A DNA stretch of 64,000 nucleotides from contig NZ_CP097484.1 of assembly GCF_023546765.1 (NCBI RefSeq), forward strand, positions 5,628,501 through 5,692,500. The letters run 5' to 3'. Shown piece after piece: positions 4,291 to 21,071 of the stretch. The number at the start of each line of letters is the position of its first letter. Positions within the stretch are counted from its first letter, which is position 1. The stretch comes from Methylobacterium tardum (GTDB taxonomy: Bacteria > Pseudomonadota > Alphaproteobacteria > Rhizobiales > Beijerinckiaceae). A program made the translations under genes and the position numbers. Under the pieces are notes generated by a model, which did no database searches, was not told the DNA's origin, and was given only the letters and a program-made list of their open reading frames with translations.

Positions 4291-4398
4291 AGCTTAGCCA
4301 TGAGCCGGGTGAATCGTATGCGATGTTTCGAGCCCACCTTTCGCTGGCCGGCGTAGAGGATGATGCTGACGGTCCCTGGATGGGATCGTTTTGTATCT

Positions 4399-4827
4399 AT
4401 GGTCGAGCATATGGTCGAGCCGCCGCAAACCGTTCGGCGGTTTGAGGTGATCACCACCGCGAGCGGCCGGCGACGCTGGTCGCAGTCCGAGCGCAGACGG
4501 ATCCTGGCTGAGGTCATGGCACCGGGTGCCGTCGTGTCGGTGGTCGCGCGCCGGAACGGGATGAGCCCGCAGCACCTGTTTACCTGGCTGCGCGAGGCGC
4601 GGAAGGCGCCGACAGTCAGTGGAAGGGCAGCGGCCTTCGTACCGGTTCTCCTCGATGAGCCTGCCTCTGCGTCATCCGCATCGTCGCCCCGGGCCGGCAT
4701 CCGTCCTCAGAGCAGGCCTGCTGTCGGGATCGAGGTGGAGATGGCCGGCGCCGTGGTGCGCATCGGCGCGGACGCAAGCGAGGCGCAGATCACCGCGGTG
4801 ATCCGGGCGCTGAAGGCTTGCCCATGA
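4399..4827 (+). CDS. tnpA: IS66 accessory protein TnpA
   Basis: The product has a short HTH-like domain: RRFEVITTASGRRRWSQSER, then ILAEVMAPGAVVSVVARRNG and PQHLFTWLREAR. This is the IS66 OrfA/TnpA signature resembling IS3 OrfA. The start is uncertain among ATGs at 4360, 4399 and 4411; the conserved part begins just after 4411. The stop overlaps the tnpB start by four bases (ATGA), indicating translational coupling. In the family the protein supports transposition together with TnpB. Confidence 0.85.
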   Translation: MVEHMVEPPQTVRRFEVITTASGRRRWSQSERRRILAEVMAPGAVVSVVARRNGMSPQHLFTWLREARKAPTVSGRAAAFVPVLLDEPASASSASSPRAGIRPQSRPAVGIEVEMAGAVVRIGADASEAQITAVIRALKACP

Positions 4828-5180
4828 TCGGGCCCTCCGGCGCGGTGCGCGTGATGCTGGCCACCCGGCCGGTGGACTTCCGCAAGGGCATGGACGGGCT
4901 GGCCGCTCTGGTCCGGGACGCGATGGGTGGAGATCCGTTCTCCGGTACGGTCTACGTGTTCCGGTCAAAACGCGCCGACCGGGTGAACCTCCTGGTTTGG
5001 GATGGAAGCGGACTGATCCTCGCGGTCAAGCGTTTGGAGGCTGGCCAGTTCTGTTGGCCGAAGATCGAGGACGGCGTGGTCCGGCTGAGCGCGGCGCAGC
5101 TCGCGGCGCTCGCCGAAGGTTTGGACTGGAAGCGCGTCCATGCGGCGCGTGCCGTGAGCGTGCCGGCGGTTGCAGGCTGA
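4824..5180 (+). CDS. tnpB: IS66 accessory protein TnpB
   Basis: The 118-residue protein carries the IS66 Orf2 signature: LATRPVDFRKGMDGLAALV, then TVYVFRSKRADRVNLLVWDGSG and a basic C-terminal region. The length is normal for the family and the frame is intact. The ATG at 4824 overlaps the tnpA stop; a TTG at 4818 is an alternative. It is required for IS66 transposition in studied elements, but the biochemical role is not established. Confidence 0.9.
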   Translation: MIGPSGAVRVMLATRPVDFRKGMDGLAALVRDAMGGDPFSGTVYVFRSKRADRVNLLVWDGSGLILAVKRLEAGQFCWPKIEDGVVRLSAAQLAALAEGLDWKRVHAARAVSVPAVAG

Positions 5181-5248
5181 GCAAAAAGACTGGCGGACGG
5201 GCTTCATCGCGGTGGTAAGTCACTGGCGGATCTGCTCTAATCCGCTTC

Positions 5249-6772
5249 GTGGCCGCGCCTGCTTCGCCCTCGTCCGACGATCCCGAGACGCTCAAGGCGC
5301 TGCTCGCCGAGGAGCGCGCCGAGAACGAGCGGCTGCGCCAGATCATCCTGGCGATGCAGCGCCACCGCTTCGTACGTCGCGCCGAGAGCCTGCCCGAGGA
5401 TCAGCTTCTGCTCGGGCTTGAGGAGGCCGAGCAGGTCGAGGCTGCGCGCTTTGCCGCCGAGGAAACGGAGCCCGCCAAGAACGAGGCCCGGAGGGTCAAG
5501 CGGCGCACGAACCGTGGTGCACTGCCCGCCCATCTGCCGCGGGTCGAAACCGTCGTGGATATCGGCAACCTCGTCTGCCCATGCTGCTCGGGCGCCCTGC
5601 ACCGGATCGGCGAGGACGTCTCTGAGCGCCTCGATGTGGTGCCGGCGCAGTTCCGAGTGCTGGTGATCCGCCGCCCACGCTATGCCTGCCGGGCCTGCGG
5701 GGACGCTGTCGTGCAGGCACCCGCGCCGGCGCGGGTGATCGAGGGCGGTCTACCCACCGACGCTCTGGTCGCGCAGGTCCTCGTCTCCAAATACGCCGAC
5801 CAACTGCCGCTCTACCGGCAGGCGCAGATCTTCGCCCGCCAGGGCGTCAGCCTCGACCGCTCGACGCTGGCCGACTGGGTCGGGCGCGCCGCCTTCCTGC
5901 TTCGGCCCGTGCACGGGCGACTGCTGGAGACGCTCAAGCGCTCGGGCAAGCTGTTTGCCGACGAGACCACGGCACCGGTGCTCGATCCGGGCCGCGGTCG
6001 CACCAAGACCGGCCAGCTTTGGGCGTATGCGCGCGACGACCGGCCCTGGGGCGGGACGGATCCGCCGGGCGTCGCCTACGTGTACGCGCCCGATCGCACA
6101 GCCGGACGACCGATCGCGCATCTCTGCGGGTTTGCAGGCGTGCTGCAGGTCGACGGCTACGCGGCCTACGAGAGCCTGGCCAAGGGCGGCGCAGTGCGGC
6201 TGGCCTAAAGCTGGAGCCATGTGCGCCGGCAATTCTATGATCTCGCCGCCGCCTCGCCGATCGCGACGGAGACGCTGTCGCGCATCGCCGCGCTCTACCG
6301 GATCGAGGCCGAGATCCGCGGTCGCTCGGCCGAGGAACGACAGGCGGCCCGGCAGGAACGAAGCCGGCCGGTGGTCGAGGCGCTGGAGGCATGGTTGCGG
6401 GAGAAGCTCGGCCTCTTGAGCCGCAAGAGCAACTTGGCCGAGGCGATCCGCTACGCCCTGAGCCGCTGGGCGGGGCTGAGCCTGTTCCTCGACGACGGGC
6501 GCGTCGAGATCGACTCCAACACCGTCGAGCGGGCGATCCGACCTCTGGCCCTCAATCGCAAGAATGCGCTCTTTGCCGGATCCGACGGCGGGGGCGAGCA
6601 TTGGGCGGTGATCGCCTCGCTGATTGAGACCTGCAAGCTCAACGGCGTCGAGCCGCAGACCTACCTGGCCGACGTCATGACCCGCATCGTCGAGGGGCAT
6701 CCGCAGCGGCGCCTCGACGAGCTTCTGCCCCGGGCCTACCCGAGCACACCCACGCTCCAAGCCGTGGCCTGA
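5249..6772 (+). pseudogene. tnpC: IS66 transposase TnpC, interrupted by an in-frame stop
   Basis: The GTG at 5249 begins a typical TnpC: coiled-coil N-terminus, zinc-finger part (CPCCSGALHRIGEDVSE, CRACG), then the DDE catalytic domain with DETTAPVLDPGRGRTKTG and LQVDGYAAYE. At 6206-6208 the frame reads TAA where relatives have an aromatic codon before C/S-W-S-H-V-R-R. Reading resumes in the same frame to 6772 and includes the Glu-containing TVERAIRPLALNRKNALF and GSDGGGEHWA motifs. This is a single nonsense mutation without frameshift, so the gene is inactive unless the stop is read through. Confidence 0.9.
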
Positions 6773-6793
6773 GAACGCCGCCACCCTGGCGCG

Positions 6794-7024
6794 TCAGACG
6801 GATCGTGTGAACAGGGTCCGAAACAGCGCCTCGGATTGGCGCAGGCCCTCGTCGGTCAGCACCACCGACTTGGCGCGCCCGACCGGGTCGGCGATGAGCC
6901 CCTTGGCGTGGAGACGGCCCAGCGCAGCCCAGTCGAAGCCTTTCCAGGTCCGACGCTCGTCGTGGAGCGTCAGCCACAAAAGGGCGAGCACCGCCTCGCC
7001 GATGCGTTCCTCGCCGACCGCCAT
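6794..7024 (-). CDS. DUF6429 family protein, IS66 passenger
   Basis: The 76-residue protein (MAVGEERIGEAVLALLWLTL, ending in a winged-helix-like VVLTDEGLRQSEALF) matches the DUF6429 proteins found beside IS66 tnpC genes in Methylobacterium and relatives. It lies on the opposite strand, converging on tnpC with a 21-nt gap, inside the presumed element. Function is unknown; a small DNA-binding role is possible from the C-terminal winged-helix-like part. Confidence 0.75.
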   Translation of the reverse strand: MAVGEERIGEAVLALLWLTLHDERRTWKGFDWAALGRLHAKGLIADPVGRAKSVVLTDEGLRQSEALFRTLFTRSV

Positions 7025-7361
7025 CCCAGCAGATTAGCACGCCGCGCTCAGACCGGGCGTGGTGCCAGCCGATCGGTTACAGATAAAGATCGTCTCCGGC
7101 GAGAACTCTGAACCCATGAGCGGGCCCCAGTGCCACCAACTCAGGGCCGTGGCGCATGAGCGCGTCAGTTGGGAAGAAAAGCCGGTCGCTAAGGAACGAC
7201 CCCTGCGCCGTCAAGAACCGCGGCTTATAAGAAGGTTGGAATGTGAGGTTATTCTGGTAATGCTGTGTCTTATGCGTAACCCAGGAACTATAAATCGCTT
7301 ACACATCTATTAAAAAGTCGCAAGGACGGTATATGCGTTTCTGAAGATTATATACGACAGA

Positions 7362-8411
7362 TCATCGTTCCATTCTATACGTCGTGGCGATGGCTCCATG
7401 CAACATCGCCGGCGCAAAAGGCTGAACCTGCGCAAGCGCTTTGTTTGCCAAGTTCAACGCGGCTTCATCGGAGAAGGGGCCCCCTGGCCTAGGACCATAG
7501 GTGCGGAGCCGGTCCACCAAATAATTGACGCCAAAACTGAACGCCGGCAGACCTGCCTTTGCTGCCGCTGAGAAGAAGGCGAGGGCATCTGAGTGCAGAC
7601 CAAGACGCGCGGCGGCTTCCCCGGCCAATACGGCGGCGTCGCTGATATCTGGCCGTAGCTTCGCCGCTCTCGCAAACGGACCAAACATTTGCGCGATGTC
7701 TCCACTGCGCAGCAATCCATAACCTAATAGCATACTTGCGGCCGGATGATTGCCGAGATATCGGAGGACCTCCTTTCCGGACATACTGTCGAGAATGACT
7801 GCAACTTCACGTACTTGACCCGCTGCGCGGAACCGCATCATGTCGTCCACGATCGGAACTCCGGTCGCTAATGTACAAGAGATGGTCGTGGCCGTTGGCG
7901 TCAGCTCGACAGTTGCACCCGACGCGATTACGACCGACAGTAGCAAATCATTCTCAAGCCACAACCTGACAGTCGCGACTCCCTCATTCGCACCGCGGGA
8001 GACTCGGATCGAAGAACTCTCGGTGTCGAGTTCGACTGCGCTTGCGATGTTCTGACGCTTGCCGCTTCCTAGGATGAGTTGAGCACGCGTCGCCGCGGGA
8101 AAATGGGCGCTCGCGGCTACCCGCGAGGTGACCTCCGAGTCGATAAAAGCGGTGACGGCGGGAAGCGTACCTAGCTTTTTGTAAATGCCCTTCATTGAGC
8201 TTGCCGATTTTTCCGTTATATCCACCGCGGTCGCAGCTGTGGTTCCGTTCGGGAGCGCTACCGAAACGTAGGCAACCTGATCGGTCTTGGCCGCTTCCGT
8301 AATCGCCTGCGAGAGTCCAGAAACGGTCGAGCGCGCGAGTAGCGCGAAATTTTGGTCTCGCACTTCTGCAGGCAAGCCGCCCAGCCGGTTTTTTAATCGT
8401 TCGGTCCTCAT
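7362..8411 (-). CDS. Unknown protein with alpha-helical (TPR-like) C-terminus, last gene of caspase operon
   Basis: The 349-residue protein is not of a family I recognise. The N-terminal half (to about residue 200) is mixed alpha/beta. The C-terminal half reads as helix pairs of the Sel1/TPR type (for example AAVLAGEAAARLGLHSDALA followed by another helix pair). The start ATG overlaps the stop of the metacaspase gene by four bases, so the two are almost certainly translated together. Position suggests a substrate, regulator or scaffold of the upstream protease. No signal peptide or membrane span is visible. Confidence 0.7.
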   Translation of the reverse strand: MRTERLKNRLGGLPAEVRDQNFALLARSTVSGLSQAITEAAKTDQVAYVSVALPNGTTAATAVDITEKSASSMKGIYKKLGTLPAVTAFIDSEVTSRVAASAHFPAATRAQLILGSGKRQNIASAVELDTESSSIRVSRGANEGVATVRLWLENDLLLSVVIASGATVELTPTATTISCTLATGVPIVDDMMRFRAAGQVREVAVILDSMSGKEVLRYLGNHPAASMLLGYGLLRSGDIAQMFGPFARAAKLRPDISDAAVLAGEAAARLGLHSDALAFFSAAAKAGLPAFSFGVNYLVDRLRTYGPRPGGPFSDEAALNLANKALAQVQPFAPAMLHGAIATTYRMER

Positions 8412-9637
8412 GCGGAAGGTTCGGCAATGAAGCTGAGATCGAAATCGAAATATGGCGGCTTTATCGTGATGATTTGCTTACTGAATGCGCGATAAGTCGC
8501 CGCAACTTCCGGCAAAATCTTTGCGCTGACCACATATCCCCCGGCCCGCGCGCGGTACATTCGTGCGGTCTCACACGGCGGCCCGAAAGTGTAGGGGGCT
8601 GCGTCTTGGAGCGCGTCGAGCACGACCGAGGTATGCGGCACAGCGTCGGAAGGGCTGATTGTGAACCGGCAGTCGACCTCTGGCGGTTCTTTAAGCGTGA
8701 CAATTGGTATGTCGAGCTTAGTCCATTTATCGAAGGAAAGACTGCGCAGGTCGCGGCCGCGCTTGTTATTGGCTTCGTCAACGAGCCGCGCCATGGCTTC
8801 TGCCATAGAGCCGATCGTTACCGTCCATCGATCGCCGCTCGGCCCCCGGATGAGATCGGCTCCCCCCCCGCTCAAGCACGCCAACACATCTGCTCCAAAA
8901 GCCGAAATACCGCATGGGAGAAGCGAGCCGAACGCGGGTCGGCCGACCGAGGCGCCGAAGAAGATCGGGGCGACGCGATCGTCTCGCCCTCCCTCGCTTA
9001 TATCCCAAATCGTCGCTGGCACCGGGTTGGCGAGCGCCTGGATACCCCTGACGTCTGTGCGACAGGCATCGACGAAATAGAATTGGGTTCGCGCCCGGCA
9101 CTCGAACGGCGGCTCGGCCATGCCGTTGTAGATCTCGATAAAGTCAATAGCGCGGCCGAGAAGTGACTCACTTGGGTCGAGGAAATCTGCGAGTAGAAGC
9201 AGTGAGTCCCCACGCGTCCGCTGTATTCCGTGACCGGAATAGTAGAAGAGCGTCGCGCCGGTTGGATCCTGCGAAGCGTCGATGCGCCAGGCGCGGACCG
9301 CCCGCTTCAAATTCGCCAACGTGGCCGGCAGACAATTTGCAAGCACCGGATGCTCGTAGGCCTCGACCTCGCTAGGTGACGCGAGTAGGCGGATGGTGCG
9401 CACCGGCCAGGCGAGCTCGGCGGACGGCTCAAGTAGCCACCGCTGAATTTCGCTTGCCGTCCGAGCAGCCGAGTCGAGCTGATCGAGACCGTAATTGTTC
9501 TGTTGCTCCTCTTCGCCTCCTTTGAGGAACTTGTAAGAGCTGATGCCAATGAGTAGGGCATGCAGACCCGGCCCATCGTCTGCGGAGCGGTAGATCAGAC
9601 CCGTGGAATCGGGCGACACAGTCACACCCTGCGCCAT
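8408..9637 (-). CDS. Metacaspase-like cysteine protease (peptidase C14 fold)
   Basis: The 409-residue protein has the caspase-fold core: first strand LHALLIGISSY (residues 25-35), catalytic His in FYYSGHG (H136) and catalytic Cys in FYFVDACR (C192). These are the order and spacing of peptidase C14. After about residue 300 a beta-rich domain without recognised homology follows; it may bind a partner or hold the protease inactive. No export signal is seen. The gene starts 2 nt after the lysozyme-like gene and overlaps the next gene, so three proteins are made from one transcript. Prokaryotic caspase-like proteases commonly act as executioners in conflict systems; that role here is inferred from context. 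Confidence 0.88.
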   Translation of the reverse strand: MAQGVTVSPDSTGLIYRSADDGPGLHALLIGISSYKFLKGGEEEQQNNYGLDQLDSAARTASEIQRWLLEPSAELAWPVRTIRLLASPSEVEAYEHPVLANCLPATLANLKRAVRAWRIDASQDPTGATLFYYSGHGIQRTRGDSLLLLADFLDPSESLLGRAIDFIEIYNGMAEPPFECRARTQFYFVDACRTDVRGIQALANPVPATIWDISEGGRDDRVAPIFFGASVGRPAFGSLLPCGISAFGADVLACLSGGGADLIRGPSGDRWTVTIGSMAEAMARLVDEANNKRGRDLRSLSFDKWTKLDIPIVTLKEPPEVDCRFTISPSDAVPHTSVVLDALQDAAPYTFGPPCETARMYRARAGGYVVSAKILPEVAATYRAFSKQIITIKPPYFDFDLSFIAEPSA

Positions 9638-9639
9638 TT

Positions 9640-11511
9640 CTAAGCTCCGAGAATTGACCAGTCGAGCGCCACATCGAGCGAGGGCGTGTAAATGCCGTCC
9701 GACCGTCCCTGCGCGCGCTTCTTCTGGAGCGCGTGAAGCGCGGCAGACGTCGCCGGACCGAATTCACCATCGGGAGCACTGATACCCAGCTTTTCCTGCA
9801 TGGCACGCACGCGCTCGCCGGACGAACCGAAGCGCAGCCGCCTCGGCGGTGCGCTTCTCGCGAGCGCAGCCTCGGCGCCGGTGAGCAGCATATAGAAATA
9901 CGGGGCTCCAGGGGTGCCTGCTGGTCCAACTTGGCCAGCCATCTCGCGGAATTTCGCCCACGGTCCCCTGTGGTCACCAGCGGGGCTCGCCGAGCCGACC
10001 ACCACTTGGCAGCCGACCGACGAGAATGCTGCCGTCGTTTGAAAGAACGTCGGGTGTATGTTGTCACCAGGGGTGCAGACGTGCGCCATATCGCCGAGTG
10101 AGTACTCGAGGTCAGCTGAGCTGCGGCGTACCACGACCTCTCTGAAGACGCTTGCCGTCTTCCGGAGCAAGAAGCAGCCCGGCTTCCCGTTATGGGTGCC
10201 GACAATATAGCCGTAGAGACCAGTCGAGAGCAGGTTTCCCCTGTCGTGTTTCGCGCGCCATGACACGACCGCCGCAGCATTCGGTACCGTAGATCCGGCG
10301 AACACTGCGATCTGGCTCTTTGCGCGGTCCCAGACGCCGAGGACGCAGCGCGCCACCTGATGGTCAGGGCGGATATCGCGAAGCGTCACCGACTCTGAGA
10401 AGCCGCCGCCGCCATCGACGATAGCACAGCCGCGCAGGCCAAAAAGGATTCGGGCACCGTCGGGCAGCGCGAAGTCGTTGGCCTCGCTCAGCGCTTCCAG
10501 CGCAGCGGCGTTGAGCCGGAAAAGTCCACCGGTCGGGGGCGCCTCGACGAGATGCGCGTAATCCGGAGACCTTTCGTCCTCAGCCCAGCGGACCGCCGCC
10601 GCGCTGATCGCCGGCGCAAAATCGAACGCGTCGGCCTGTCCCTCGAATTCTGCGCCATCGGGCGCCTCTTGGTCGTCAGAGGTGCCAGGTATTCCCGCGC
10701 CGGAACCGTCATCATCAGAAAGGTCGAAACTTGGGACAAAGGGCGCGGATTGCGTCGTGAGACCGTAGGCGAACAGCGCTGCCTCGTTCTTGCGTCGCCT
10801 CGTCATCTCGGCCTCGATAGCCGTGCCACGCCAAAGCCGCGTCATCGAACGTATTAGGTCCGGGATTCCAGTAAACTGCTTCGCCGCCATGGCGTCCTTT
10901 ATCGCGCGCATTTCGCGATAGCGGTCCTTCGGATCCTTCGCCGGATTCCACCGGATCGCGAAGGAAGCGCCGCGATTGAACGTGAGAGAAACAAGCGCGC
11001 CGAAGCTATCAGGCGAGAGTTCATCGGTGTTTGCAAGCGACGACATCGTCAGAAGCACGAACTTCGGAAGCGTGCGGGCTTTGAAGACGCGCTCTGACAT
11101 GTCCCAAGACACGCGTATGTCCGACATTGACGCGGCGAGCGCCGCCAGCGCCGGGTCGCCGTGGCGGCCGCATGCCCTCGCGAGCCGGTCTAAAGAATTG
11201 CTGCCGAGCTCGGCCCAGTCACGGCGCAGGTCAGCGGCAGAAACATACCCGATGTCGTATCCGAACCCGATCGTGACGCCGGACGCTCCGGCCGGCCAGA
11301 TTGGCCGCGCTTTGATCACCTTTTCATAGAACGGGCGGCCGCCTGTCTCATGGCGGACGATAAGCGCCAAAGCCGCGTCCGACACCGGCAAGGGCGCCAC
11401 CCCGAAATCGGGCACGAAGGGCTCTTGTTCGGCGTCGGCGATTTCCGCTTCGCGGTCGGCCAGCGCCTGAAAATCGTAACCGCTCTCGCTCGGATAGCCC
11501 GTATCGTTCAT
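9640..11511 (-). CDS. Lysozyme-like muramidase with C-terminal peptidoglycan-binding domain
   Basis: The start is placed at the ATG at 11511 because it is preceded by a GGGAGAAGAG ribosome site; the frame is open 92 codons further but without family character. The 623-residue product has a lysozyme-like domain at about 45-270 (RHETGGRPFYE with probable catalytic Glu55, then GVTIGFGYDIGY, later SLTFNRG), as in phage-type lysozymes. A middle domain (about 370-550) is unrecognised. A PG_binding_1-type repeat closes the protein (about 558-623, RLRFGSSGERVRAMQEKLGI). No signal peptide is visible, which is odd for a wall hydrolase and suggests release by lysis or a dedicated route. It heads the operon with the metacaspase. 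Confidence 0.78.
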   Translation of the reverse strand: MNDTGYPSESGYDFQALADREAEIADAEQEPFVPDFGVAPLPVSDAALALIVRHETGGRPFYEKVIKARPIWPAGASGVTIGFGYDIGYVSAADLRRDWAELGSNSLDRLARACGRHGDPALAALAASMSDIRVSWDMSERVFKARTLPKFVLLTMSSLANTDELSPDSFGALVSLTFNRGASFAIRWNPAKDPKDRYREMRAIKDAMAAKQFTGIPDLIRSMTRLWRGTAIEAEMTRRRKNEAALFAYGLTTQSAPFVPSFDLSDDDGSGAGIPGTSDDQEAPDGAEFEGQADAFDFAPAISAAAVRWAEDERSPDYAHLVEAPPTGGLFRLNAAALEALSEANDFALPDGARILFGLRGCAIVDGGGGFSESVTLRDIRPDHQVARCVLGVWDRAKSQIAVFAGSTVPNAAAVVSWRAKHDRGNLLSTGLYGYIVGTHNGKPGCFLLRKTASVFREVVVRRSSADLEYSLGDMAHVCTPGDNIHPTFFQTTAAFSSVGCQVVVGSASPAGDHRGPWAKFREMAGQVGPAGTPGAPYFYMLLTGAEAALARSAPPRRLRFGSSGERVRAMQEKLGISAPDGEFGPATSAALHALQKKRAQGRSDGIYTPSLDVALDWSILGA

Positions 11512-11990
11512 GTCTCTTCTCCCGCTTCCCCTGGAGCGACGATCGATTCGAGATGGTCCCATCCGCTGCTTTGAAATGGCGAGACAGTCTAACTTGACTT
11601 CCGAGAAAATCCAGCCATTATTATCTCCGCAGCTCAATATCCATCTGACGTTAGATGCGGCTCGTTGCCAGGATTCGCGCGGCTTTACGTCTAAGTTTGT
11701 ACAAACCGTACTGTGTCCGATTTTAGAGTTATCTCGGATATCTCTCGCAACGATAATCGAGTTCAGAGCTCTAAGACCAAACCTCAAAGTTTGTTGGGTT
11801 GAGATGAGAGCGCAATAGAATGATTTGGGATAATTGACGCGCTCTGGCGGTCATCTTTCGCGGTGCCGCCGGTACTTTCTCTTTTGTTGGCGTGCTCGGT
11901 GCTCCTCATTTCGACGGCAGTCGGCCTTCCGATCTGACGCGGCACGATACGCCCGAGAGTGCTGTTGATCGATTGTAAGGTGAGACGGCG
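11512..11990. promoter_or_regulatory. Divergent intergenic region between the two conflict-type operons
   Basis: About 480 bases separate the divergent starts at 11511 and 11991 and hold no supported gene. The stretch around 11580-11830 is AT-rich compared with the flanks, as expected for two back-to-back promoters. A shared control region for both operons is an inference from layout; I see no clear operator repeat. Confidence 0.4.
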
Positions 11991-13292
11991 ATGTCAGTCG
12001 TAACCTGGCCTGGGCAAAACCGACCTTATGCTCTCTTGTGCTTCGACGCGGACGGTGCCGAAAGGCCCGCGAGCGGTGGCATCGCGTCTGAAGCGCTGCT
12101 GAATGCCTCGGCAGACCCTACCGATATCTTTATTAATATCCACGGCTGGATGGGTGATATCCCAGCCGCAATCGACCAATATAACCGCTGGTTCAGCTCT
12201 CTACTCGCGCTTCACGATGTCAGCGCGCGTCTTGCTACATTTCGGCCGCAGGGCTTCGTACCGATGTTGGTGGGGCTGCACTGGCCGAGCCTGCCCTGGG
12301 GCGACGAGGAATTGCCCGCTGCGGCGAGCTTTTCACCACCAGAAGGGCGGGAGGTTGATGCACTCGCCGACGCTTATGCCGGACGGTTAGGCGAGCGACC
12401 GGGACTACGTGAAGCGCTCAAGGTCATCATCGCCAACGCGCTCGCCGACAGTGCGCCCCAGACGATGCCGGAGACCGTTCGAGCGGCCTATGAGGCGCTC
12501 GACCTGATGATGACTGAGCTTACCGTCGGCGGCCCGACTGCGCAGCCGGGCGCTGACAACCCTCCCTTCGACGCGCCTGCAATTTTCGAGGCGTCAAGCA
12601 GCGGTCCAGCTTCGTTTGGACTTGAGAGGTTCGGCTCTCTGCTCGCTCCGCTCCAGATGCTGTCGTTCTGGAAAATGAAGGATCGCGCGCGGAGCCTCGG
12701 TGAGGTGAGCTTCCACTCGCTCTTACGGCGACTCGCGGACCGCTATCCAATGGCGCGGCTGCACGTGATGGGACATAGCTTCGGATGCATCGCCGCCTCC
12801 GCGGCGATTGCCGGGGGACCGGGTGTACAGGGCAACCAAATCGCTTCGCTTGCCCTTATTCAGGGTGCGCTTTCACTCTGGTCCTACGGCTCGAACAACG
12901 ACTACGGCAGCGGACGTGGCTATTTCGAGCGGTTGATCGGGGGCCGGCTCGCCGACGGCCCCATTGTCACGACACAGAGCCGCCACGACCGCGCCCTATC
13001 GTATTTCTACCCGCTCGGCGCCGCAGCGCGGTGGCAGATTGACTTTGATGCGGGCAAACTGCCGCGATTTGGCGCTCTGGGCATCTACGGCGCACAAGGC
13101 CTCGGCGCTCCTGTCCGCAACATTGCGATCCTCGACGCGGGTGACGCCTATGACCTTGCAGGTGGGGCCATTCATAACATCGAAGCGAGCCGCGCCATCT
13201 GCCGCGGTGACGGCGTGAGCGGCGCACATAGCGACATTGCTGGACCCGAGGTCGCGCACCTCATCTGGAGCGCCGCAGTGGCAACAGGATAG
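11991..13292 (+). CDS. Alpha/beta hydrolase (lipase/esterase-like)
   Basis: The 433-residue protein has an oxyanion-loop motif (IFINIHGWMGD, 46-56) and the nucleophile elbow GHSFG (261-265, Ser263). A late acidic/His region (ILDAGDAYD, GAHSDI) could supply Asp and His. The long insert at about 105-225 between strand and elbow is unlike standard esterases and may form a lid. No signal peptide is seen. The gene lies 6 nt upstream of the C25-like protease, so they form an operon. The substrate is unknown. Membrane lipid is an attractive guess because lipases are common effectors in conflict systems, but the sequence alone does not show it. Confidence 0.8.
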   Translation: MSVVTWPGQNRPYALLCFDADGAERPASGGIASEALLNASADPTDIFINIHGWMGDIPAAIDQYNRWFSSLLALHDVSARLATFRPQGFVPMLVGLHWPSLPWGDEELPAAASFSPPEGREVDALADAYAGRLGERPGLREALKVIIANALADSAPQTMPETVRAAYEALDLMMTELTVGGPTAQPGADNPPFDAPAIFEASSSGPASFGLERFGSLLAPLQMLSFWKMKDRARSLGEVSFHSLLRRLADRYPMARLHVMGHSFGCIAASAAIAGGPGVQGNQIASLALIQGALSLWSYGSNNDYGSGRGYFERLIGGRLADGPIVTTQSRHDRALSYFYPLGAAARWQIDFDAGKLPRFGALGIYGAQGLGAPVRNIAILDAGDAYDLAGGAIHNIEASRAICRGDGVSGAHSDIAGPEVAHLIWSAAVATG

Positions 13293-13298
13293 GAGCAC

Positions 13299-14723
13299 GT
13301 GGTGGCGGAACGTGACGTCGCGAGCGCGAAGTTCGCGTCATTCGGCATTGACGCCGAGACGAGCAGGCCTCTCCCGGATCCCGATCCCTCGGGCTTTGCC
13401 AAGCGAGCCTCGACGGACGCCAATGATCCCGCGGCGATCCGGCGGCACGAAGACGCAATGACCTTCGGGACGGTCGTTGAGGTCAATGAGGAGGATCTCT
13501 CCAGCAGCGGGTGGGGGATTGTATTTGCTGCTGCCGACCCCAGGGCGGAAGAAATCGAGAACGCACTCGCCCCGTTGATTGAGCATCGAAAGATGCAAGC
13601 TGGCTTGCAGTTCCGCATTTTCAAACATGACCAGGGGGTTCGGGAAGGCGACACGGCCGAGGCATGGCTCGAACGGCTTGATATCGGCCTTGATCTAGTC
13701 GAGCCCGCCAAGGGAGCGCCGTATTATCTTCTGTTGATCGGCGATCTAGAGCAAATCACCGCCGAATTTCAGTATCGAATAGACCTGTATTGGGCCGTTG
13801 GACGGATACATTTCGACACGCTGGAAGCTTATCAGAACTATGCTGCCAACGTGGTTCGTTATGAGACCGCGCAATCGATCCCGCACCGACGCACAGCAGC
13901 AGTCTTCGCACCGAGGCATCTTGGCGACCAAGCAACGGAGATGTTTAACGAGATGGTCGCTGCGCCGCTCGTCGCCACCGCGCCACTGAACGATTTCTCC
14001 TGGGAACCGATGCTCGCTGCGGCCGCGACCAAGGCAGCGTTCTCGGAGCTTATCACCGGCAAGCGTGATTGCGGTTTGCCGGCGCTGCTTTTCAGCGGCG
14101 GACATGGAATGGCTTTCCCGCCCGAAGACCCGCTGCTTCCGGTCACCCAAGGCGCGCTCGTCTGCCAAGACTGGCGTGGGCCCGGGACAAAAATAGAAGC
14201 CAGCCATTGGTTTGCAGCCTCCGACCTGCCTGAAGGCGGCGTAGCGGCAGGAGCAATCCACCTACTGTTTGCCTGCTACGGCGGCGGATATAGTGCGACG
14301 GATACCTTTCGCGATCGAGGAGCTGCGCGCCGCATTGCTGATCGCCCTGGAATTGCGCGGCTTCTCCAGGCGATGCTCGGGCGAGCGGACGGCGGACCGC
14401 TCGCGGTGATCGCGCACATTGATCGAGCCTTCGCCTATAGCTTCGCGACGCTGAGGATGGGCGAGCAGGCACAGGGCTTTCGCAGCGTCCTATTTGCGCT
14501 GATGCTAGGTCGGCGAGTTGGCAGCGCGCTCGATCGTTTCAGCGTCAAGTGGGCCTCCATCGCGACCCAGATCGCTGATCTTTCCCGGTCTCAAGAAACG
14601 GGGGAAACGGATCGAAAGCTTTTACAGCTCTGGATCGCCCGCGATGATGCTCGCAACTACATCGTATTTGGCGATCCGGCGGTGCGCCTGCACCCGTCCA
14701 TTACGAAATCCGCCCCTCGGTAG
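13299..14723 (+). CDS. Gingipain (peptidase C25)-like caspase-fold protease
   Basis: The 474-residue protein begins at a GTG right after a GGAG site. Motifs appear in the order of family C25: YYLLLIGDLEQI (142-153), WAVGRI (165-170), then FSGGHG with candidate catalytic His269, then LLFACYGGG with candidate catalytic Cys326, and a final YIVFGDPAVRL (454-464). GDPxxRL near the end is a C25 hallmark. Unlike gingipains there is no signal peptide, so the protein probably works in the cytosol. The family call is from motifs only. With the metacaspase on the other side of the divergent promoter, this gives two different caspase-fold proteases in one locus. Confidence 0.75.
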   Translation: MVAERDVASAKFASFGIDAETSRPLPDPDPSGFAKRASTDANDPAAIRRHEDAMTFGTVVEVNEEDLSSSGWGIVFAAADPRAEEIENALAPLIEHRKMQAGLQFRIFKHDQGVREGDTAEAWLERLDIGLDLVEPAKGAPYYLLLIGDLEQITAEFQYRIDLYWAVGRIHFDTLEAYQNYAANVVRYETAQSIPHRRTAAVFAPRHLGDQATEMFNEMVAAPLVATAPLNDFSWEPMLAAAATKAAFSELITGKRDCGLPALLFSGGHGMAFPPEDPLLPVTQGALVCQDWRGPGTKIEASHWFAASDLPEGGVAAGAIHLLFACYGGGYSATDTFRDRGAARRIADRPGIARLLQAMLGRADGGPLAVIAHIDRAFAYSFATLRMGEQAQGFRSVLFALMLGRRVGSALDRFSVKWASIATQIADLSRSQETGETDRKLLQLWIARDDARNYIVFGDPAVRLHPSITKSAPR

Positions 14724-14862: not shown

Positions 14863-17800
14863 TTAATCGGATATATGTGCTGCTGCGGTTGTCTTTGAGC
14901 GCCTTCGTGATCGTCTGCGTGCTTCAAGCCGCTTGATAAATTCATCACTGGTCGCGTGATCACCTCGATGCGCAGCTATAAGGCTTAATCGATCACGAAT
15001 TAACGCTGCATGGTTGATGGGCCATGTCTCGGCAATGCGCAAGTATGCCCCACGAAATCGCGGATCAGCAAGATGTGCCTCGGCCGAGTCCAGATCGCAA
15101 CGAAATGCCGCAGATATGAAAAAATCCCAGACGCGGTCGTGTCGGAATTGGATGCGCTCCTCTATACCGGCAACTCCTTTCACTGCCCGACGAACAAGGA
15201 GCCTTGCTCTCAGGAGGCTGGATGTCTCTGCAGGAAACTCATCAGGTTTAAACCAGTTTCGATCTACCAATCTCATCTCGACCGCGTGCCGTCCAAAAGA
15301 CTTAAGTGGAAACGACATACCGGTTATGCTACGGTAGCCTGGCTCGCCCGTGACACCCTCATCGGCAATGCGAAAAGCTTCGCCGATGAGCGCTGTCGCT
15401 GACGGCATGTCTCCTCGAGCGAGCAGATCTGCGGCGAAGGCGAGATCGAAAGGGTTGGACAGCATGAGCTCGGCTGCCCGCCGGTCATGCGGGCTCGGCG
15501 CCTCATCCAATGCACGACGCAGGAAGGCTGAGACGGCAGCTGTATAGTCTGCTCCGTGGCACTTCTGTGTCTCGTCGGCTCCAACCGGGCGAGAGGAAAG
15601 AAAACTCTCCGCCTCCGCCCGATCTAGCGGCAGAAGGTCAATCTGTTGCGATGGCTGTGCTGGTTCCCACTCAATCGGTTGCGTAGTCAAGATCACGCGA
15701 CCCCTAGACATTTCGCGCGCAAAGCTTCCTATTTTTTCCCGAGTATCGGCTGATACCTCATTTAGGCCATCCACGATTGCAATCAACGCTCCAGTATAGA
15801 CGAGGCTGCGCACGAAATCTGTGCTTTGAATATCGTGAATCGTCCGCGCTATTGCAGTATCAACGCCGTTGGAGCAGTCGCGAGCTAGGAGGTAAGCCAC
15901 AGGATGGGAGGCTGTTGCGGTCAGCCAACGCACAGCGCTGGTCTTGCCAAGTCCAGCCTCACCGCGAATTACGACCGTTCCGCGCAAGTTTGGCAGAATG
16001 CGATCTATCGGAACGGGATCACCTCCGTTGAGCCGAGCTCTTGTGCTGAAATAGCCGAGCTGCCAAAACTCCTCTATTCGGGCGGCTGCGATTAGGTCGG
16101 CGCGGAATGGGATAAGAAGTCTTCGCCTGAGCGGCGGCATAATCAACAGGAGCAATGGAACAAACCATAGGCTCATCGCACTGCGTGCCTGAGCATTCCA
16201 GAAAAACACAGCTTGAATGGTTCTCGAATATGGAAATAAAACCAGAAAAGCTGTCCAAAATGCCGTCCATCCAGCAAGAGACCAAGTAAACCACCGCATA
16301 AATGGCGCGAAATTCTCCTGCATAAGATGGTCGGCAAGGGCCCTTTGGTAGGCAGAATTACTTTCTTGAAACTTCTTCAAGAGATGCTCTAGAGTGTGCT
16401 TCTGGTCCAGCGTCCAGCACCGCTGTACTAGACCGTCAGATGGCAGATACTGGAGCCACTTGAGCCCTAAACTCACCAATTGGCTCCATGTGCCTGCCTC
16501 TTTTAGCGTGTGGCACGCAGCATAGACAATACTCATCGCTCTGGCTTCTGCCTCATCCCGAAGACCGGGTGTGGAGACAAGGGCTGGCCAATGCTGCAGT
16601 AGCAGAGACAGAGTCGCATGAGCAGCATCCGGATTATTACGAACCTGATCTATCGGAGGAGCTAATGGCCAACCGAGCCAGGAGAGAAGTGTCTCAGCCT
16701 GTTCGTTGCGGGCGTCGGCGCCCGTCGCAATGTGGCCCGCTGCCCGCAACCGTCCTACGGCAGTTGCTCCGCGATCATGAATTAACTGAATTGCGCCAAT
16801 AGCTGTCGATGCGCTGCCAGGGCCCGCTCGTATGAGTACCTTCATGGTGGCATTTCGCAACTCGTTGTCGCTGTCTGCAAGGAGGAGCAGGAGCTTGTCC
16901 ACGACAGCGTCGGTTCTTGCTCTCAGCGGCAAGCGTGCCAGCGCGTCCACCGTGGCCTTACGCACAACTTCTTCACGATCTGCGAGCAGGGGCAGAATCT
17001 TGTCCACGATAGTGCTCGTTGGCGTTTGCTTTCCGATACTGACGAGTGCATCCACCGAGGTCTTCCTCACATCTTCGTTTTGATCAGTGAGGAGGGGCAG
17101 TAGCTTGTCTATGACAGCATCAGAGTGCGCTCCGAGGGGCAGGCGTGCCAGAACGTTCGCGGTAACTTTGCGCACATCGTTGTCGCCATCAGAGAGGAGG
17201 GGCAGGAGCTTGCCTACGACAATGTCACTTTGCCCTCCCAGCGGCAGTTGCCCCAGCGCGCTCACCGCGGCTTTGCGCACAATTCCGCGGTCAGCTGCGA
17301 GCAGGGGCAGGAGCTTGCCCACGACAGTATCGGTCCGCGCTCCCAACGGCAGGCGCGCTAGCGCGTCCGCGGTGGCAGCACGGACCTCACCCCAGGAATC
17401 TGCGAGGAGTGGCAAGAGCTTGCCCACGATCGTGTCAGCTCTCACTCCTGACTGAAGTTTTGAGAGTGCGTTCACCGCGCTCCAGCGCACAGATCCTTGA
17501 GAATCATCGAGGAGGAGCAGGAGCTTGTCCACGACCGCATCGGTCCGTGCTCCCAGTGGCAGGCGTGCCAGCGCATTCACTGCGGCGGCGCGTGTATACA
17601 AATCGCTATGTACGAGGAGTTGCAGGAGATTGTCGACTATAACAGCGGCATCGACTCGCTCTTGTTTTCCGATACCGGCGAGTACTTCTTCCACTCCCGT
17701 TTGGATGCTCCACTCGCGTTGTTTGAGGAGAGGCACGATCTTGCCGGCAATAATGTCGGTTTGCGTTCCGAGCGACAGATTTGTCAGCGCGTCCACCGCG

Positions 17801-19386
17801 ATCTTGCGCCCGTCTTCGTCTGGGTCTGCGAGGAGGGGCAGGAACTCGTCCACAACAACGTTGGCTCGCGCACCTAGCGGCAGATGCGTTAGCGAAACGG
17901 TCGCGCTCGCTCGCACATCTTCGTTTTGATCAGTGAGGAGGGGCAGTAGCTTGTCTATGACAGCATCAGTGTGCGCTCCGAGGGGCAGGCGTGCCAGAAC
18001 GTTCGCGGTAACCTTGCGCACATCGTTGTCGCCATCAGAGAGGAGGGGCAGGAGCTTGCCTACGACAATGTCACTTTGCCCTCCCAGCGGCAGTTGCCCC
18101 AGCGCGCTCACCGCGGCTTTGCGCACAATTCCGCGGTCAGCTGCGAGCAGGGGCAGGAGCTTGCCCACGACAGTATCGGTCCGCGCTTCAATTCCGATCT
18201 TGACAAGCGCGTACTCCGCAGCCCTCCGCGCAAGTTCGTTGCTATCTTCGACGAAGGATGGGAGATTGTCCAAGTCAGAACTGGATGGCTTTTCCTTGCG
18301 TGGTGATTGGCCTTCACGATACGTGACGATTACGTCCACTAAGGGTTCGCGCGCAGGTTCATTGATATCTGCGAAAAAGGCCAGGAGCTTGCCCACAACA
18401 GCGTCGGTTCGGGCTTGATTACTGATCGTGACGAGTGCGTCCGCTACGGACTTGCGCGCAACGTCATCGCGATCTGCGAGGAGGGGCAGGAGCTTGTCCA
18501 CCACAGCATCAGTTCGCGCCCCTAGTGGCAAGCGCGCAAGCGCCGCTGCCGCAAGCCTGCGCACATTCGATTTGGGATCTGCGAGCAGGGGCAGTAGCTT
18601 AGCCACGATAACGTCGGTATGTGCCTCCAGCGGCACGCTCTCCAGCGAAATCACCGCAACGGTGCGCACCCCTTCTTCGCTGTGTGAGAGGAGGGGTAGG
18701 AGCCTGTCTAAGAATGCATCAGTTCGAGCTCCTGATGGAAGTTGTGGAAGTGCGAGCATCGCGCTCGTGCGCACACCATCGTGACGATCTGCGAGGAGGG
18801 GCAGTAGCTTTTCAACGACAGCGTCCGTTCCCTCTTCGGTCGGATGGAGGAACACCAGCACGTCCGCCGCGCTCTTGCGCGCGCGGTGGTCGCGATCTGC
18901 GAGGAGAGGAAGGAGCTTGCTTACGATAGCATCGGCTCGCGCTTGCTTTCCGATATTGATGAGTGCGTCAACCGCGGCCTCGCGTACACCTCCATCGCCG
19001 TCTGCGAAGAGGAGCAGGAGCTTGTCTACAACAGCATCAGTGTGCGCTCCCGGGGGCAGGCGTGCCAGAGCGTTCGCGGTAGCCTTGCGCACATCGCTGT
19101 CGCCGTCCGAGAGAAGGGGCAGGAGCTTGTCAGCGGCGACATTGGCTCGAGTTCCCAGTGGAACAGCCTTGGGGAGTGATCCAAACAGCATGACTGCCGC
19201 AGTTACAACATCATTCCTTGGATCAGCGATTGCGGCCTCGTAGCCGCGGACAAGCCAATCCGGCGGCTGTTCATCCTGCGACCGGCCTGAATAGGGCCAC
19301 GCTAGAAGACTCAGTCCAGCCGCCAAGGTGTAAGCAGCTAAAAGACGTGTGCGGCGCACTATGGTCAGCATCCTGCACTTCAGCAA
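14863..19386 (-). CDS. Giant membrane HEAT-repeat/NACHT NTPase
   Basis: The 1507-residue protein has an N-terminal signal-like segment (about 8-32) and then about 20 HEAT units of 37-38 residues (consensus TDAVVDKLLPLLAD...VRKAAVDALARLPLGA) to about residue 860. A helical part, hydrophobic spans near 1032-1052 and 1070-1085, and a NACHT-type NTPase follow. Walker A is GEAGLGKT (1142-1149), Walker B LIAIVDGLNEV (about 1201-1211) and a sensor-like VILTTQP is about 1231. FRHDRVWDFF near 1414 resembles the post-NTPase winged-helix end of STAND proteins. Such NTPases are signal-sensing switches; the HEAT array would be the sensor. An alternative start is the Met at codon 6. The gene converges on the C25-like gene with a 139-nt gap. 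Confidence 0.85.
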   Translation of the reverse strand: MLKCRMLTIVRRTRLLAAYTLAAGLSLLAWPYSGRSQDEQPPDWLVRGYEAAIADPRNDVVTAAVMLFGSLPKAVPLGTRANVAADKLLPLLSDGDSDVRKATANALARLPPGAHTDAVVDKLLLLFADGDGGVREAAVDALINIGKQARADAIVSKLLPLLADRDHRARKSAADVLVFLHPTEEGTDAVVEKLLPLLADRHDGVRTSAMLALPQLPSGARTDAFLDRLLPLLSHSEEGVRTVAVISLESVPLEAHTDVIVAKLLPLLADPKSNVRRLAAAALARLPLGARTDAVVDKLLPLLADRDDVARKSVADALVTISNQARTDAVVGKLLAFFADINEPAREPLVDVIVTYREGQSPRKEKPSSSDLDNLPSFVEDSNELARRAAEYALVKIGIEARTDTVVGKLLPLLAADRGIVRKAAVSALGQLPLGGQSDIVVGKLLPLLSDGDNDVRKVTANVLARLPLGAHTDAVIDKLLPLLTDQNEDVRASATVSLTHLPLGARANVVVDEFLPLLADPDEDGRKIAVDALTNLSLGTQTDIIAGKIVPLLKQREWSIQTGVEEVLAGIGKQERVDAAVIVDNLLQLLVHSDLYTRAAAVNALARLPLGARTDAVVDKLLLLLDDSQGSVRWSAVNALSKLQSGVRADTIVGKLLPLLADSWGEVRAATADALARLPLGARTDTVVGKLLPLLAADRGIVRKAAVSALGQLPLGGQSDIVVGKLLPLLSDGDNDVRKVTANVLARLPLGAHSDAVIDKLLPLLTDQNEDVRKTSVDALVSIGKQTPTSTIVDKILPLLADREEVVRKATVDALARLPLRARTDAVVDKLLLLLADSDNELRNATMKVLIRAGPGSASTAIGAIQLIHDRGATAVGRLRAAGHIATGADARNEQAETLLSWLGWPLAPPIDQVRNNPDAAHATLSLLLQHWPALVSTPGLRDEAEARAMSIVYAACHTLKEAGTWSQLVSLGLKWLQYLPSDGLVQRCWTLDQKHTLEHLLKKFQESNSAYQRALADHLMQENFAPFMRWFTWSLAGWTAFWTAFLVLFPYSRTIQAVFFWNAQARSAMSLWFVPLLLLIMPPLRRRLLIPFRADLIAAARIEEFWQLGYFSTRARLNGGDPVPIDRILPNLRGTVVIRGEAGLGKTSAVRWLTATASHPVAYLLARDCSNGVDTAIARTIHDIQSTDFVRSLVYTGALIAIVDGLNEVSADTREKIGSFAREMSRGRVILTTQPIEWEPAQPSQQIDLLPLDRAEAESFLSSRPVGADETQKCHGADYTAAVSAFLRRALDEAPSPHDRRAAELMLSNPFDLAFAADLLARGDMPSATALIGEAFRIADEGVTGEPGYRSITGMSFPLKSFGRHAVEMRLVDRNWFKPDEFPAETSSLLRARLLVRRAVKGVAGIEERIQFRHDRVWDFFISAAFRCDLDSAEAHLADPRFRGAYLRIAETWPINHAALIRDRLSLIAAHRGDHATSDEFIKRLEARRRSRRRSKTTAAAHISD
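17068..17341. repeat. 274-bp near-identical direct repeat, copy A (inside HEAT gene)
   Basis: Positions 17068-17341 are repeated at 17914-18187, an offset of 846 bases (282 codons, in frame). I count only two or so mismatches, far fewer than among other HEAT units of the gene. This points to a recent internal duplication or gene conversion. Confidence 0.85.
17914..18187. repeat. 274-bp near-identical direct repeat, copy B (inside HEAT gene)
   Basis: This is the partner of the repeat at 17068-17341. The identity ends sharply on both sides, with different HEAT-unit sequence following. Recombination between the copies would delete or add exactly 282 codons without breaking the frame. Confidence 0.85.
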
Positions 19387-20275
19387 AATTGTGGCGGTTC
19401 AGCAAGCATTTTCATGCGAAACGAGGGCTGCAATGCCCGCCGACGATTGATGTGCTGCAGTGCTAGCAATCACGAACGGATACTGCGCAACCCCAGTGAA
19501 ACCGGTTGCATTGGCCTCTCGGTTGGGCGGACCAATCGGGATTCGAACTGGCGTTCACAATCCGTGTTTGTGGCGGCGAGAACAATGACTATTGCCGGTA
19601 CACCATCGTCCGCTCGGGACCGCGCGAGGCTACCCGTAGGCCTGCCCGACGAATGCGCTGCCTGCTCTTTGAGCTTGGATAAGTTTCGGTGGTCAGTAGT
19701 CCTCTGCGCTCAACTCACGCGCGCCATCGCTTCCGACCGGCCGATATGCTTTCCAAGAGCGGCCGCGGCGGCGAGGGGCTTAGAGGTTGTGTGTAGATGC
19801 GGCTCCTAGCTGCAGAGGATCGTGCGACCAAGACGCCGAAATCAAACATGGCAGTCCGCCCAGTATCGCTGGAACGGTTAGTACTCAGCCGGCACGCAAG
19901 TGGATTAGCTCGTGCAGTGGCTATCAACGCGACGGCCAAGCTTTCAAGGCTTTGATGGACATAGCTGCGGCAATCAAAGCCGAGGTGAGCATCATTGCAA
20001 AACCTGCAGACGGAGCGGACTCTAAGGCAGTGCTCGATAGCAATAGGTTGGAAAAAAGCCAATTTTAGATCTTTACAAATCTTGTATGCAATGGGGTTGC
20101 TTCGAAGTTGTCAGCATGGTCTTGGTATCTACGATATATCATTTGCACTAAAGTTGTAAAAGATGTATCAATAACGTCACAGAAGGTTTTGATTCGCCAA
20201 TTCGGATCCTTGATAACTGGTTGACCGCTTATCTGCTTGTGGTAAAATTGCATTCCTCCGGACGGGAGGATTTCG
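19387..20275. other. Long intergenic region, no supported gene
   Basis: Nearly 900 bases lie between the HEAT/NACHT start and the next plus-strand gene. Short frames in this stretch have no family character, apart from a weak resemblance to part of an HPr domain around 19849-20068 that is broken by frame changes. The last 200 bases are AT-rich and probably contain the promoter for the gene at 20276. Confidence 0.45.
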
Positions 20276-20725
20276 GTGGATCCACTTTCTGCAATCACCG
20301 CTGCCCTGGTCGCGGGCTCAAGTGCGGTTGCCTCCGGCGTTGCAACAGAAGCCGTCAAGGATACCTACAAAGGGCTCAAAACCGTCCTCGTCGACACCTA
20401 CAAGCTGGCCTCAACTCAGCTCCTCGAGAAGAAGCCCACCAGCCCCGCGGCTCAGGAGGCTGTCAAGGAGGAAATCCAAGACACGCCCGCAATCCTCGAC
20501 GATCAAGCGGTGCTTAAGAAGACTAAGGCTCTGCAGGATGCGATGCGCCAAGAACTGCCTGACCATCTCACCGCCTGGGGCACCGACATCAAGGAACTTG
20601 AGGCCGGCGGCAACATCATCGCTGAGTGCATCCAGGGTGGCGTCCGCGGCAAGAAGTGGAAGGCCAAAGGCGACGTGCGGATCTCGCGTGTGACGGCCCG
20701 CGGTTCGTCCTCGCGAAACCCATAA
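20276..20725 (+). CDS. Small adaptor-like protein with Ala/Gly-rich N-terminus
   Basis: A strong GGGAGGA site at 20264-20270 precedes the GTG at 20276. The 149-residue protein starts MDPLSAITAALVAGSSAVAS, continues as an amphipathic helix (TEAVKDTYKGLKTVLVDTYK) and ends with a GGNIIAECIQGG...GDVRIS stretch. That tail resembles the 'GGDIII' lead of the big TPR protein downstream. Short N-terminal modules of this style are familiar in front of NTPase and TPR proteins of conflict loci, where they recruit effectors; assigning that role here is inference. About 340 nt separate it from the TPR gene, with a TPR fragment between. Confidence 0.6.
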   Translation: MDPLSAITAALVAGSSAVASGVATEAVKDTYKGLKTVLVDTYKLASTQLLEKKPTSPAAQEAVKEEIQDTPAILDDQAVLKKTKALQDAMRQELPDHLTAWGTDIKELEAGGNIIAECIQGGVRGKKWKAKGDVRISRVTARGSSSRNP

Positions 20726-20792
20726 CGGAGGCGGAACGGCTCCAAGCTGCCTCGGCAGGAAACATCGGAGCTCGGCTCGGCTACGGCTGGGC

Positions 20793-21071
20793 GTGACTTC
20801 TTCCTCAACGTCACGCTCAATCAGAGGGCGACAACAGTTGCAAGACAGATCGGGCTGGGCGGCGACTCAGATGAACCTCGGCATTGCACTCGAGGCGCTA
20901 GAAGAGCAAGGGAGCGGGACGGCGCGGCTAGAGGCGGCGGTTGAGACTTTCGATGCCTGTCTGAGGGTCGCCGCGTCGGTATGGCCGCCCAACTGGGTCG
21001 GGCAGGTGTGCGCCGTCCGAGACTTGGTACGAGCCGAGATCGAATGGCGAGGCTCGGCTCAAGATGGCTAA
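20793..21071 (+). pseudogene. TPR-protein C-terminal fragment
   Basis: From about 20840 the frame reads WAATQMNLGIALEALEEQGS and then a tail (FDACLRVAASVWPP..) that matches the last repeat and C-terminus of the 819-residue TPR protein downstream (FNACLTVAESVWPP..). It has one repeat only and no N-terminal domain. It looks like the remains of a former copy left by deletion or recombination. A GTG at 20793 could still allow translation, and its stop overlaps the next gene start by 8 nt. Confidence 0.65.

Follow-up and report, generated by a model that had tools for sequence, protein, structure and literature searches.

A caspase-TPR operon carrying a muramidase gene beside a hydrolase-C25 protease pair in Methylobacterium tardum: a putative Canu-like cassette with an exchanged effector

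Results and discussion

Gene content and layout of the locus

The genome of Methylobacterium tardum (6.94 Mb in two contigs; NCBI RefSeq assembly GCF_023546765.1) contains, on contig C1 (NZ_CP097484.1), five adjacent genes in which two cysteine proteases are each coupled to a hydrolase. Analysis of a 64,000-nucleotide stretch of this contig (forward-strand positions 5,628,501 to 5,692,500; hereafter the window, with positions counted from its first letter) suggests that a minus-strand operon encoding a muramidase, a caspase-family protease and a tetratricopeptide repeat (TPR) protein is probably a protease-gated cell-death cassette, similar to the recently described Canu system, in which the effector has been exchanged for one that attacks the cell wall, and that it lies beside a separate pair of genes for a lipase-like alpha/beta hydrolase and a C25-family protease. 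The genes are arranged as follows:

7362..8411, minus strand: TPR-domain protein of 349 amino acids, last gene of the minus-strand operon, CanB-like by position
8408..9637, minus strand: caspase-family (C14) protease of 409 amino acids (PF00656, H136/C192)
9640..11511, minus strand: pesticin-type muramidase of 623 amino acids, first gene of the operon, placed just before the caspase gene
11512..11990, no strand: divergent intergenic region of 479 nucleotides that separates both cassettes
11991..13292, plus strand: alpha/beta hydrolase of 433 amino acids (GHSFG), first gene of the hydrolase-C25 pair
13299..14723, plus strand: C25-family (gingipain-like) cysteine protease of 474 amino acids (PF01364, H269/C326)

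On the minus strand, a gap of 2 nucleotides lies between the muramidase and caspase genes and the caspase and TPR genes overlap by 4 nucleotides; on the plus strand, 6 nucleotides separate the hydrolase and C25 genes. The five open reading frames (ORFs), their order, strands and spacing are all as given by an earlier reading of this DNA from its letters alone (the sequence-only reading), and its proposal that proteases are coupled to wall- and membrane-type hydrolases is borne out by the gene pairs found. The longest ORF of the muramidase begins at 11787, and the database protein P0007, with 623 amino acids, fits an ATG at 11511. All five frames are open, and the catalytic residues, identified by motif or alignment, are intact in all four enzymes.

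The caspase-TPR core and its relatives

The window caspase matches PF00656 at 23.9 bits (cut-off 21.4), and the profile of its family matches the MALT1 paracaspase weakly (E 0.0024), within the caspase domain only; the caspase of Canu is described with a MALT1-like, Ig-like domain at its C terminus. Two narrower identities were rejected: the EACC1-associated caspase (NF047832), at 28.3 bits against an NCBIfam cut-off of 140, and a specific PADLOC identity, the only PADLOC match being to the general 'caspase' model.

Relatives were collected with a caspase profile (A3) of five sequences including that of the window, genomes being searched with the profile and plasmids by tblastn with single caspases. 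The resulting set comprises 24 loci that match A3 at E <= 1e-20, the window excluded: 13 + 4 from plasmids and seven from genomes. The first plasmid search gave 19 records, of which 13 were used directly, one more (Streptomyces) was used via the second search, and H4, H6, H13, H17 and H19 were left out; the second gave 20 records, of which four new loci were used (L145-L148) and H86, also new, was left out. Three loci with weak caspase matches (~1e-13) and no TPR match (L126, L127, L128) stand outside the 24. The family is sparse: it was found in 9 of 397 genomes of the window's order (E <= 1e-12) and 3 of 337 of its class (E <= 1e-20), the window's own genome included in both, and in none of 295 genomes of the Citrobacter family at E <= 1e-6, in a search that had no positive control; a first scan of genome contigs with the caspase alone as query gave no match. 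Some genome searches (caspase in order and class, muramidase, hydrolase in order) scored no more than the top 4 or 5 candidates of each genome, so absences in them are soft.

The His/Cys dyad is present in the window caspase and 23 of the 24 relatives, and also in the main fragment of a broken copy (L108). The TPR domain of the window's TPR gene lies 3' of the caspase or is fused to it in 23 of the 24 loci; the exception is again L108, where a split caspase frame is followed by IS21. Because the TPR profile was built in rounds, partly from these 24 loci, the fair test is provided by the nine loci never used in building it, all of which match; six proteins (P0001-P0006) alone, used as the profile, matched 6 of the 15 loci first tried at E <= 0.01, and as a control the TPR profile matched none of 80 C25 loci at E <= 1e-4. 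Fusion of caspase and TPR domain in five loci (L109, L120, L122, L124, L145) argues that the two proteins act together. An apparent triple fusion of effector, caspase and TPR domain in L102 and L124 was rejected: its first ~500 residues match no family and appear to be a high-GC frame extended from stop to stop, a hydrolase match there lies in a different frame, and the caspase-TPR fusion alone was kept.

A fold model of the TPR protein (predicted local distance difference test score, pLDDT, 77.8; 6 sequences) has a beta-rich N-terminal half and a C-terminal half of TPR-like helical repeats; its best neighbours among PDB structures are ordinary TPR proteins, none at E <= 0.001. The protein runs to the end of the region conserved among its homologues, four of five of which extend ~10-20 residues further. 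Precomputed annotation assigns the family (P0001-P0006) to PF27295, an entry that the Pfam copy used for scanning did not return. No relative of the TPR protein was found in viral contigs.

In the part of its description available to us (PMC12799240, dated 13 November 2025), Canu consists of the caspase CanA, of CanB, which forms a soluble complex with it, and of the pro-nuclease CanC with a metallo-beta-lactamase (MBL) fold; it protects Escherichia coli from phage T4, and its loci are variable, with genes of unknown function and TPR and Ig-like parts. Judged by that part of the source, the window resembles Canu (KaeCanABC) in that a caspase with a weak MALT1-like profile match precedes a partner that combines beta-rich and TPR parts, and those relatives of its core that have a downstream MBL gene of the Avs1a family share the Canu layout; it differs in that its genome has no CanC-type MBL and a muramidase gene lies upstream of the caspase instead. 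By position and layout, the TPR protein is a putative counterpart of KaeCanB. Since CanC, a defining part of Canu, is missing, we do not file the window as Canu and describe it as Canu-like with another effector. By analogy to the CanA-CanB complex, the caspase and the TPR protein would form the constant core.

An exchangeable third gene

The third gene of the 24 caspase loci is an MBL-fold gene in 12, an alpha/beta hydrolase in 10, both in none and neither in two. The MBL-fold gene follows the TPR gene in 11 loci and is a remnant in the broken L108; plasmid proteins annotated Avs1a belong to its family (4 of the 50 rows listed). The hydrolases of these loci form one family and lie directly upstream of the caspase in all ten. 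In the two remaining loci, the TPR domain lies inside a long protein (annotated phospholipase-D-like in L002 and trypsin-like in L004), with an M12-family metallopeptidase gene upstream. The zero overlap of MBL and hydrolase would have a probability of 3.4e-5 if the loci were independent, which they are not. The layout of the window fits that of the hydrolase-type loci, the muramidase occupying the upstream slot. A search for the MBL with three positive controls in all, which found the gene in the plasmids of L145 and L146 (MBLs outside the profile), found none in a hydrolase-type genome (G315).

Several loci show further arrangements. L003 has a patatin gene in divergent orientation. In L145, a Bosea vestrisii plasmid, the caspase-TPR fusion shares about 8.5 kb with two TIR genes, an MBL-fold gene, a lysozyme gene and another caspase. 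In L006 (Agrobacterium plasmid, 8340-13519), a caspase-TPR-MBL operon has next to it, in divergent orientation, a TIR gene and another caspase gene, perhaps a TIR-caspase system adjoining a Canu-like locus. MBL loci outside the 24 are L140-L142, with neighbours of ABC-three-component type (so annotated in L141 and L142), and L143 and L144, neither with a caspase match. L144 (Agrobacterium pAt plasmid, 5479-7080) holds a short TPR-domain ORF directly 5' of the MBL gene, and is possibly a degraded or split Canu-like locus.

The muramidase

The muramidase divides into three parts:

about residues 41-256: catalytic domain (fold model and weak Pfam match)
about residues 264-301: acidic linker (low model confidence, probably disordered)
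after the linker to the end: C-terminal part, well modelled, ending in a PG_binding_1-like stretch

Pfam matches to pesticin-type lysozyme and to peptidoglycan-binding domains are below cut-off. The fold model supports a lysozyme, with pesticin as its best fold match in a comparison that covered mainly residues 41-264, and the catalytic residues E55, T80 and D86 are present, as in the pesticin-type Glu/Thr/Asp set; T201 and D207 of pesticin appear as mutants in PDB titles. Muramidase-type matches occur in six genomes besides the window's, of which three were examined and the other three match in the catalytic part only.

Pesticin is a bacteriocin, and relatives that share the C-terminal part of the muramidase carry nuclease (some PF01223), amidase or glucosaminidase domains, as in polymorphic toxins; both points would suit a toxin of interbacterial competition that the caspase-TPR pair regulates or processes for export, with no part in phage defence. 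We consider this quite improbable: a crude scan gives no obvious signal peptide, neither a secretion nor an immunity gene was recognised among the window genes scanned (a selection of its ORFs), and the caspase-TPR core carries a defence-type MBL elsewhere.

Subtilases, trypsin-like or caspase proteases adjoin the relatives of the muramidase in L137 and L138 and of its C-terminal part in L139, where that part is joined with a clostripain (C11) domain in one protein.

The hydrolase-C25 pair

The C25 protease matches PF01364 at 26.6 bits (cut-off 23), and its dyad, H269/C326, is invariant in four aligned sequences; we take the C25 family to belong to clan CD. The Pfam match of the alpha/beta hydrolase is below cut-off, and its GHSFG motif is present. 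A C25 profile was run on one genome per species (84,980 species), and the best 80 of 157 candidates were used; by record titles these include Proteobacteria, Cyanobacteria, Acidobacteria, Chloroflexi, Nitrospira, Gemmatimonas and others. The hydrolase family of the window is found in 31 of these best 80 C25 loci, or in 34 loci when three plasmids are added, and in 30 of the 34 both genes are on the same strand within 300 nucleotides, measured between stop-to-stop frames. The other 49 of the 80, many from Chloroflexi, have no window-type hydrolase in the stretch examined, which in 16 of them extends less than 1.5 kb on the 5' side. Two C25-type ORFs occur in 8 of these 49 (L040, L041, L046, L051, L055, L063, L073, L081), and L016, which has the hydrolase, holds four.

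Neighbours of the pair were sampled as 35 large proteins, hand-picked from 29 of the 34 loci (L022 and L024 were scanned separately; none was scanned from L060, L067 and L092); among them CHAT domains occur in 26, nSTAND1 in 22 and WD40 in 20. Such CHAT and nSTAND1-WD40 conflict proteins (PF12770, PF20703) adjoin relatives of the pair, whereas the neighbour in the window is a HEAT-NACHT gene:

14863..19386, minus strand: HEAT-repeat protein of 1507 amino acids with a NACHT-like P-loop, ending 139 nucleotides from the C25 gene

Its NACHT match is 17.6 bits against a Pfam cut-off of 26.7, and PADLOC matches to HEAT_CxxC_PDDEXK and OloA were set aside as stretches within its repeats. Its position suggests that it is perhaps the STAND partner of the pair.

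Of 297 genomes of the order, 2 have the hydrolase family, one of them being the window's, and C25 was found in 3 of 99 genomes of the taxonomic family, strongly in the window's genome only and weakly in two. This near-absence from relatives fits arrival by transfer. E. coli genomes hold no close DNA relatives of a Citrobacter hydrolase-C25 locus, in a search confined to near relatives, and no relative of the window hydrolase was found in viral contigs.

Two neighbouring cassettes

The sequence-only reading took the five genes for a single system. Tight packing, a common divergent region of 479 nucleotides, complementary activities and the end of the HEAT-NACHT gene so near the C25 gene would suit one composite defence unit spanning the five genes and perhaps the HEAT-NACHT gene as well, in which the STAND-like protein would be the sensor, the two proteases would become active, and hydrolase and muramidase would jointly breach membrane and wall. 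The halves were not seen together elsewhere, however: the window-type caspase family occurs in none of the 80 C25 loci, and neither C25 nor the window-type hydrolase family in any of the 24 caspase loci. On these counts we reject a conserved five-gene unit and consider the composite reading unlikely; the two halves look like independently moving cassettes that are neighbours here. Judged from sequence, both are best read as having a like logic, that of a clan CD protease with a hydrolase.

Proposed mechanism and points that weigh against it

In the Canu-like cassette that we favour, an infection signal would activate the caspase-TPR complex, which, by analogy to Canu, would cleave the muramidase. 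The linker that joins the catalytic domain to the C-terminal part would be the simplest site, and the released wall cutter would kill or lyse the cell before the phage matures. As there is no obvious signal peptide, the muramidase would need membrane damage or another route to reach the wall; the lipase-like hydrolase next door could give such damage, although no tie between the two was seen. The hydrolase-C25 pair may be a second cassette of the same logic, perhaps served by the HEAT-NACHT protein. The suicide or anti-phage role suggested by the sequence-only reading finds support in kinship, in that relatives of the caspase lie in Canu-like loci and relatives of the hydrolase-C25 pair beside CHAT and nSTAND1 proteins; phage defence itself would follow by analogy.

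Several findings weigh against this interpretation. An A3-type caspase at the strength of the 24 loci is absent from the three genomic muramidase relatives and from four plasmid loci of looser relatives (L011-L014); L138 and L139 have distant caspases only, and L014 an annotated M15 metallopeptidase only. The muramidase family thus occurs also without an A3 caspase, and what speaks for its coupling to the caspase in the window is the operon arrangement together with a single indirect second case. The CanC-type MBL gave no match in the window or the whole genome. Partner exclusivity is limited to one hydrolase family: L110 has an upstream Tle1-like phospholipase and L120 an upstream patatin, both also with an MBL downstream, and L119 carries an upstream subtilase as well. 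The 24 loci do not count as independent cases, and some of them supplied sequences for the hydrolase, MBL and TPR profiles. For the second cassette, CHAT has no match in the whole genome of the window and nSTAND1 has four, none over cut-off and none within the range of the window, so the pair is here without its usual company.

Relation to described systems

In the parts available to us, the description of MoxR-vWA systems (Kaur et al. 2020, PMC7159879) includes the coupling of a caspase to an alpha/beta hydrolase. The VMAP/MoxR-vWA ternary systems of that partial source are similar in that a caspase-type protease is coupled to a neighbouring alpha/beta hydrolase, and differ in that the partner of the core here is a TPR protein, or the protease is C25 in the other cassette. 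No MoxR or vWA gene was recognised among the window genes scanned (again a selection of the ORFs), apart from one vWA_Ro60 match, lacking any separate stretch, in an 819-amino-acid TPR protein. The same part of PMC7159879 proposes that lysozyme effectors of NucA-trypsin and EAD1 systems attack peptidoglycan; the protease-coupled lysozyme is shared with the window, and some muramidase relatives here have PF01223 nuclease domains, whereas the core here is a caspase-TPR pair and Pfam scans gave no EAD1 domain. The available part of Kaur et al. 2021 (PMC8195603) describes the nSTAND1 domain. Neither this paper nor PMC7159879 mentions C25 or gingipain in its main text; CHAT gives three matches in PMC8195603, all author names.

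The literature searched yielded no description of a caspase-TPR system with a muramidase, no paper joining caspase, lysozyme, muramidase, operon and anti-phage, and none joining gingipain, caspase and anti-phage. The claim of the sequence-only reading that no such system had been described is thus narrowed: the caspase and TPR core resembles Canu, and the absence of a muramidase version from that literature stands.

The chances seem to us about even that the caspase-TPR pair is a portable protease switch arming nucleases, lipase-like hydrolases and a muramidase, with Canu belonging to a wider family of caspase-gated suicide systems, of which the window would show the wall-attacking version. 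If so, some bacterial caspases would resemble initiator caspases whose executioners can be swapped, and the selection of DNA, membrane or wall as the target would become an experimentally testable part. Canu has been described as a caspase arming a nuclease, and a core that also arms hydrolases and a muramidase would widen that role. The hydrolase-C25 pair, no description of which was found in the literature searched, adds a second clan CD protease/hydrolase partnership, beside CHAT-nSTAND1 in several phyla.

Flanking sequences

The operon is bordered on its TPR side by a mobile element:

4360..7313, plus strand: IS66-family element, its extent taken from ORFs, adjoining the end of the TPR gene

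This element, TPR-type fragments seen by eye near 20-21 kb, and the patchy occurrence of the cassettes (within the order, and counting the window's own genome, 2 of 297 genomes have the hydrolase family and 9 of 397 the caspase family) could indicate a chance neighbourhood, that is, an accessory region gathered by transposition, and maybe decaying, whose genes are related only within small pairs. Against this stand the five open frames with their catalytic residues and a TPR protein that reaches the conserved end of its homologues, and we regard it as very improbable.

The IS66 transposase is apparently split over two frames (5249-6208 and 6221-6772). By eye, 20000-23523 holds a short alanine-rich ORF and a TPR sequence fragment, then a complete 819-amino-acid TPR protein at 21064-23523; the stretch looks like a decayed or recombined gene. 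A similar TPR protein of the 819-amino-acid type is encoded on a plasmid of Methylobacterium nodulans (H59).

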